Origin: Nitrososphaerota archaeon | GTDB taxonomy: Archaea > Thermoproteota > Nitrososphaeria > Nitrososphaerales > Nitrosopumilaceae | Direction: 5' to 3' | Length of the DNA: 53,571 nt | Assembly (NCBI GenBank): GCA_022564515.1 | Contig: JADFLH010000004.1 | Coordinates: forward strand, 1 to 53,571 | Part shown: one piece after another, positions 44,933 to 49,901 of the stretch | Layout: each line of letters starts with the position of its first letter | Numbering within the stretch: position 1 is the stretch's first letter | Notes under the pieces: model-generated | The model's input: the letters and a program-made list of their open reading frames with translations, nothing else | Databases searched by the model: none | What the model was told of the DNA's origin: nothing | Translations under genes and position numbers: made by a program

Positions 44933-45248
44933 GGTAGTAGCCCTACTGGCTCTAGTCTAGATTGATAACCCCTTTTCAAGGTATACAAGATCCGCCACGT
45001 TGACGAGGAAGCGTGGATGCCCCAACTTAGGATTGCTCCCTCCCGGACCTCATCCCTTTCGATGGTTCGGTCATAGAAGTTATCCCTTCGGATAATTCCA
45101 GTCCTGCAACCACCCGCCTCGGCGTGATTTCATTTCCGCACACCAAGCGGGAATAACCCTTCTAGAGATTTACCCAGTAGTTACTGATCTCTGCATATAG
45201 CCGGTTTCAGAACAGGGCACGGCTAGCACCCCAATCCTCCCTACTACC
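44933..45248 (-). ncRNA. ffs: 7S signal recognition particle RNA
   Basis: ~316 nt, GC-rich against AT-rich flanks. The ends pair (GGTAGTAG with CTACTACC). The helix 8 SRP54-binding loop is visible on the minus strand as GGTCC-GGGA-GGGAGCA at 45033-45050, with the GNRA-like tetraloop and the AGCA asymmetric loop. It lies between acyP and the thiolase gene, with its own TATA box. It assembles with SRP19/SRP54 to target membrane proteins. Confidence 0.93.
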
Positions 45249-49307: not shown

Positions 49308-49383
49308 ATCTACTCAACTAGACTTTACGCTACTTATCAAGCTTTTTGAAAAATTCAATTAGGATTCTATCCCAATTTGGAAT

Positions 49384-49443
49384 GCAGGCAGTGATGAACA
49401 TATCCCTATGATTGATGATATGGATCTTGAGTTCTGAGCCTGC
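49384..49443 (+). ncRNA. Candidate C/D box sRNA (2'-O-methylation guide)
   Basis: 60 nt. Terminal stem GCAGGC/GCCTGC, C box GTGATGA (49391-49397), D' ATGA (49408-49411), C' TTGATGA (49412-49418) and D box CTGA (49434-49437). The guide before D (49419-49433) is complementary to 12 nt of tRNA-Leu(CAA) anticodon arm (G/A-ACUCAAGAUCC), and the fifth base from D pairs with wobble C34. Lies in the 165-base gap upstream of yjbQ. Prediction from box order and guide fit. Confidence 0.7.
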
Positions 49444-49472
49444 CCTTAGTATTTTTATGGCTGAAAAGAAAT

Positions 49473-49901
49473 TTGTATGATGTGAAGTCGTTAACTGAAT
49501 ATCTAATCTTTAATACAAAAACTAGGAGAGAATTTGTAAATATTACACTAGATATAGAAAAATTAGTAAAGAAAAGCAAAGTCAACGAGGGTCTTTGCCT
49601 TGTAAATGCAATGCATATCACTGCAAGTGTTTTCATCAACGACAACGAAAGTGGTTTACATAATGATTATGATAAATGGTTAGAAGGTCTGGCACCTCAC
49701 GAGCCAATTGATCAATACGATCATAATAAAATCGGAGAAGATAATGCAGATGCACACCTTAAACGGCAAGTCATGGGAAGAGAAGTTGTTGTTGCTATCA
49801 CCGATAGTGAACTTGACTTTGGACCTTGGGAACAAATTTTTTATGGTGAATTTGATGGACGCCGTCAAAAACGAGTACTTGTAAAAATAATTGGAGAATA
49901 A
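49473..49901 (+). CDS. yjbQ: YjbQ/UPF0047 family protein
   Basis: 142 residues. Family motifs: [74 protein letters not shown]. Members show a thiamine-phosphate synthase side activity in vitro; physiological role unclear. Start is TTG at 49473 or GTG at 49482. Confidence 0.9.

Follow-up and report, generated by a model that had tools for sequence, protein, structure and literature searches.

What is encoded by a 60-base element that lies between two divergent genes on contig JADFLH010000004.1, from an archaeon of the family Nitrosopumilaceae? The leftward neighbour, on the minus strand, specifies a 140-amino-acid protein without a Pfam family, and the rightward neighbour, on the plus strand, is a UPF0047 gene. 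The whole stretch of DNA analysed, 53,571 nucleotides of this contig, is referred to below as the window. Judged by its sequence, the intervening element of this ammonia-oxidising-type archaeon is a genuine guide RNA gene and belongs to a known kind of RNA; very probably, its product is a box C/D sRNA that guides fibrillarin to the 2'-O-methylation of C34, the wobble base, in tRNA-Leu(CAA). Such an assignment links a specific guide RNA to a predicted wobble modification in archaea of the ammonia-oxidising type.

The element is arranged as GCAGGC A GTGATGA ACATATCCCT ATGA T TGATGA TAT GGATCTTGAGTT CTGA GCCTGC (Table 1), which is the architecture of an archaeal box C/D sRNA, with C (RUGAUGA) and D (CUGA) boxes near the ends, C' and D' boxes in the interior, and a terminal stem of 6 bp. 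A first-pass annotation had described four boxes in order between complementary GC-rich ends. All of them were located, and the strict C...D'...C'...D pattern with its stem occurs once in the whole window and in none of 150 random sequences matched to the window's trinucleotide composition. The single-strand folding energy (z of -1.4) is uninformative, as expected for a C/D sRNA. An Rfam scan over the span of the sRNA returned no family above its cut-off: snoPyro_CD (RF00095) reached 21.9 bits against a curated cut-off of 45, other sR families likewise fell below theirs, and the sub-threshold matches were almost all to C/D snoRNA families.

Table 1. Window coordinates of the sRNA, its parts and the neighbouring downstream gene.
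Feature	Position	Strand	Remark
C/D box sRNA, predicted guide for C34 of tRNA-Leu(CAA)	49384..49443	+	85.2 bits with model R1
Terminal stem, 5' strand, GCAGGC	49384..49389	+	3 of 6 pairs altered on both sides in relatives
C box, GTGATGA	49391..49397	+	
D' guide region, ACATATCCCT	49398..49407	+	
D' box, ATGA	49408..49411	+	weak; TTGA or CTGA in relatives
C' box, TGATGA	49413..49418	+	
D guide, GGATCTTGAGTT, pairs with G30-C41 of tRNA-Leu(CAA)	49422..49433	+	49429 opposite C34
D box, CTGA	49434..49437	+	
Terminal stem, 3' strand, GCCTGC	49438..49443	+	
UPF0047 protein gene, downstream neighbour, syntenic, separate from the sRNA	49482..49901	+	

The target had been deduced in the first-pass annotation from the guide alone, and the tRNA exactly as deduced is present elsewhere in the same genome. 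A search of that genome for RACTCAAGATC found three places, namely the guide itself, a non-tRNA site in L002, and one tRNA (G000:C60:12388-12488) that scores 39.7 bits with the Rfam tRNA model and is called tRNA-Leu(caa) by ARAGORN when introns are allowed. This tRNA carries a canonical 16-base intron, ATCGGTTCAATGGGAA, at 37/38 (after G37), and once the intron is removed it folds into a normal cloverleaf whose anticodon arm, AAGGA-CUCAAGA-UCCUU, contains the GGA at 29-31 and allows the G-U pair at position 30 that had been foreseen. By the criterion given in PMC4644070, guide and target should share an unbroken run of at least nine Watson-Crick pairs that includes the D+5 position; the guide forms 12 pairs with the mature tRNA, 11 Watson-Crick and one G-U at G30, and C34 faces 49429, the guide base five positions ahead of box D, as the annotation had it. 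The 12-base match that was to be sought in the genome's tRNA-Leu(CAA) is therefore found, though it holds in full for the mature tRNA and shortens to 11 bases on the precursor, owing to the 37/38 intron; the precursor still pairs over 11 bases because its intron begins ATC. Introns at 37/38 of tRNA-Leu(CAA) usually begin this way, copying the 3' exon (L003 1468-1570, family tRNA list), and in several other families the intron seems to lie near position 30/31 instead.

Following transcription of the sRNA gene and assembly of the ribonucleoprotein, the terminal stem together with the C/D and C'/D' boxes would fold into two kink-turns, to which L7Ae, Nop5 and fibrillarin would bind. Once the D guide has paired with the anticodon arm of tRNA-Leu(CAA), fibrillarin would methylate the 2'-hydroxyl of C34, which the duplex places at the D+5 position, and the resulting Cm34 may favour accurate reading of UUG. 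A fibrillarin gene is present in the same genome (E = 9.3e-89). Bacteria form Cm34 in the same tRNA by means of the protein-only enzyme TrmL.

Conservation within the order bears on which parts of the element matter. By DNA comparison, 11 genomes, close relatives included, carry the element, and in several of them it adjoins the UPF0047 gene; a covariance model gave matches in 77 of the order's 101 genomes (58 of the 70 good ones), some of the weakest being a sister sRNA, described below, rather than the tRNA-Leu(CAA) guide. Across 57 aligned orthologues the guide core GATCTTGAGT is near-invariant, the exception being a C-to-T change, compatible with G-U pairing, in two (L009 and L141); stem, spacers and box bases vary across the same 57. 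The terminal stem covaries, half of its pairs having changed on both sides (Table 1). Conservation of the boxes in relatives, on which the first-pass annotation had staked its proposal, was thus borne out, and stem and guide are kept along with them. Compensatory change in the guide duplex can hardly be assessed, because the target region of the tRNA is itself invariant. When tRNA position 41 was compared by eye, lineages with U41 were found to have a guide A or G, always pairable, a pattern that is not significant since several C41 lineages also carry an unpaired guide A; position 41 lends slight weight to the predicted guide-tRNA pairing.

Covariation also involves the boxes themselves. Some families of the order have AGGA, AAGA or GGGA in place of CUGA as box D, at an unchanged distance from the guide (L117, L125, L126, L128-L131, L133, L134, L136, L138, L141 and L142), and bases of the C box often compensate, as where ATGACTA accompanies AGGA so that C-G and U-A replace U-U and G-C. 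Among the 57 orthologues, the first facing C/D position has standard pairs or U-U in 49, against about 37 in shuffles, and the second has standard pairs in 44, against about 34. None of 10,000 shuffles reached the observed pairing, and when only distinct box combinations were counted 50 and 5 of 10,000 did so, both figures coming from shuffles that ignore shared ancestry. The tandem GA is kept at fixed spacing in 53 of the 57, and the facing positions covary as in a kink-turn. These replacements suggest that scans for the consensus CUGA overlook real C/D sRNAs in some families.

The same guide also occurs beyond the order. When one genome per species was scanned for exact matches to the pattern TGATGAN{2,8}GATCTTGAGTNCTGA, at least 119 contigs had one. 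Outside Nitrososphaerota, the matches listed include Thermoplasmatota, Methanomethylicota and Micrarchaeota, in all of which a C box precedes the matched segment and completes a C/D sRNA, and a tRNA-Leu(CAA) containing ACTCAAG, mostly followed by ATC, is present in seven of the 12 such genomes among the matches listed. A match in Saprospiraceae, also among those listed, looks like chance; a contig labelled Proteobacteria (L194) bears a copy of the sRNA typical of Nitrosopumilaceae and is probably misbinned. The repertoires of C/D sRNAs usually differ greatly between lineages. We give roughly even chances to a combined reading in which a guide for Cm34 of tRNA-Leu(CAA) arose very early in archaeal history and has kept its D guide nearly unaltered, some families of Nitrososphaerota exchanged box D for AGGA, AAGA or GGGA and adjusted the C box to match, and the conserved D' guide has a second target. 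The sRNA, found as it is in several archaeal phyla, offers a marker by which to ask whether Cm34 of tRNA-Leu(CAA) is an old archaeal trait.

The D' guide reads TATCCCT in Nitrosopumilaceae and GAACCCT in Thermoplasmatota; TAGCCCT is common to other families and Methanomethylicota (L201), so that a CCCT core is kept across phyla. Comparison with the 16S and 23S rRNAs of G005 and G066 and the 16S rRNA of G019 revealed no site common to the lineages, and an 8-base match in the 16S rRNA of G066 was set aside because it is missing from G005 and G019. Against the tRNAs and SRP RNA of its own genome the D' guide made matches of only 7-9 bases; a search of that genome for LSU rRNA found none, the gene probably being missing from the assembly.

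Might the D' guide nonetheless be the principal business of the sRNA, with some other target, leaving the match of the D guide to the tRNA secondary? The conservation of the D' guide is what speaks for this. Conservation of the D guide is much stronger, however, no single rRNA site fits every lineage compared, and G006, in which an AT repeat has taken the place of the D' guide, retains the D half intact; we regard such a division of labour as very improbable. Only marginally better placed, and still very unlikely, is the idea that the sRNA serves chiefly as a chaperone or timer for pre-tRNA-Leu(CAA) while the intron is still present, holding the anticodon loop until splicing, and that methylation is secondary. 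The 11-base pairing of the precursor, made possible by an intron that repeats the 3' exon, speaks for such a role, and the ATC intron start is kept in most family genomes. The guide, however, is also kept where there is no 37/38 intron (Thermoplasmatota, G115, and the families with an intron further upstream) and where the intron opens with ATA, ATT or AGT, and in some species intron hairpins such as ATCTT...AAGAT account for the ATC. Because the guide persists without a 37/38 intron or with a different intron start, its main role is unlikely to concern the intron.

The position of the element, just upstream of the UPF0047 gene and on the same strand, could also be read as that of a regulatory motif, or the boxes as a chance arrangement. 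The failure of all 150 random sequences to produce such an array, the independent match to a target, and conservation across phyla leave this the least credible of the alternatives, and its probability is close to negligible. The sRNA is moreover followed by a conserved TATA-like ATTTTTAT (about 49450-49458), and the UPF0047 gene therefore probably has its own promoter. The start codon of that gene is probably GTG at 49482, not TTG at 49473, as judged from relatives, and the conserved ATTTTTAT ahead of it resembles its TATA box.

A guide for C34 of tRNA-Leu(CAA), the function favoured here, was already predicted in Pyrococcus (Clouet d'Orval et al. 2001, as recounted in the review PMC7994747), and the present sRNA is not the first of its sort. 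The same base of the same tRNA is the predicted target in both; the present sRNA differs in belonging to Nitrosopumilaceae and further lineages, of which many are not hyperthermophilic. For P. furiosus, the snoRNAdb prediction of C34 methylation in tRNA-Leu(CAA) is cited in PMC7668247, and the predicted Cm34 was undetected in the tRNAs analysed, not every tRNA having been sequenced (PMC7668247). The sR49-type sRNA of Pyrococcus and haloarchaea is likewise a stand-alone C/D guide for a wobble C, and its target in Haloferax carries an intron as tRNA-Leu(CAA) does here, but that target is tRNA-Met (PMC2584109). The C/D RNA of the pre-tRNA-Trp intron (sR50) shares C/D-guided Cm34, predicted in the present case, and differs in residing within a tRNA intron, the present sRNA being a separate gene. 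Box C/D-guided Cm34 of a tRNA is shared, again by prediction, with human SNORD97/SCARNA97, a eukaryotic system in which two cooperating guides act on C34 of another tRNA, tRNA-Met (PMC6601510). A literature search of an incomplete collection turned up nothing on C/D sRNAs of Nitrososphaerota. What is new here is the unusual breadth and the conservation of the sRNA, the replaced D boxes with C-box compensation, the conserved D' guide, and the sister sRNA.

The sister sRNA, a second conserved C/D sRNA picked up by the covariance model in several relatives (L139, L140 and L143 to L148), has a D guide, GATTATGAGT, complementary to ACUCAUAAUC. By the D+5 rule it is predicted to guide methylation of C34 in a tRNA with a CAU anticodon, either Met or Ile; the genome from which the window comes yielded no copy. 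Upstream of the tRNA-Leu(CAA) guide, at 49335-49366 of the window, a block CTTATCAAGCTTTTTGAAA...TTCAATTAGGA is kept in relatives and possibly comprises promoter elements, either for the sRNA or for its leftward neighbour. Elsewhere in the window, an archaeal SRP RNA lies on the minus strand at 44935-45246 (104.7 bits).
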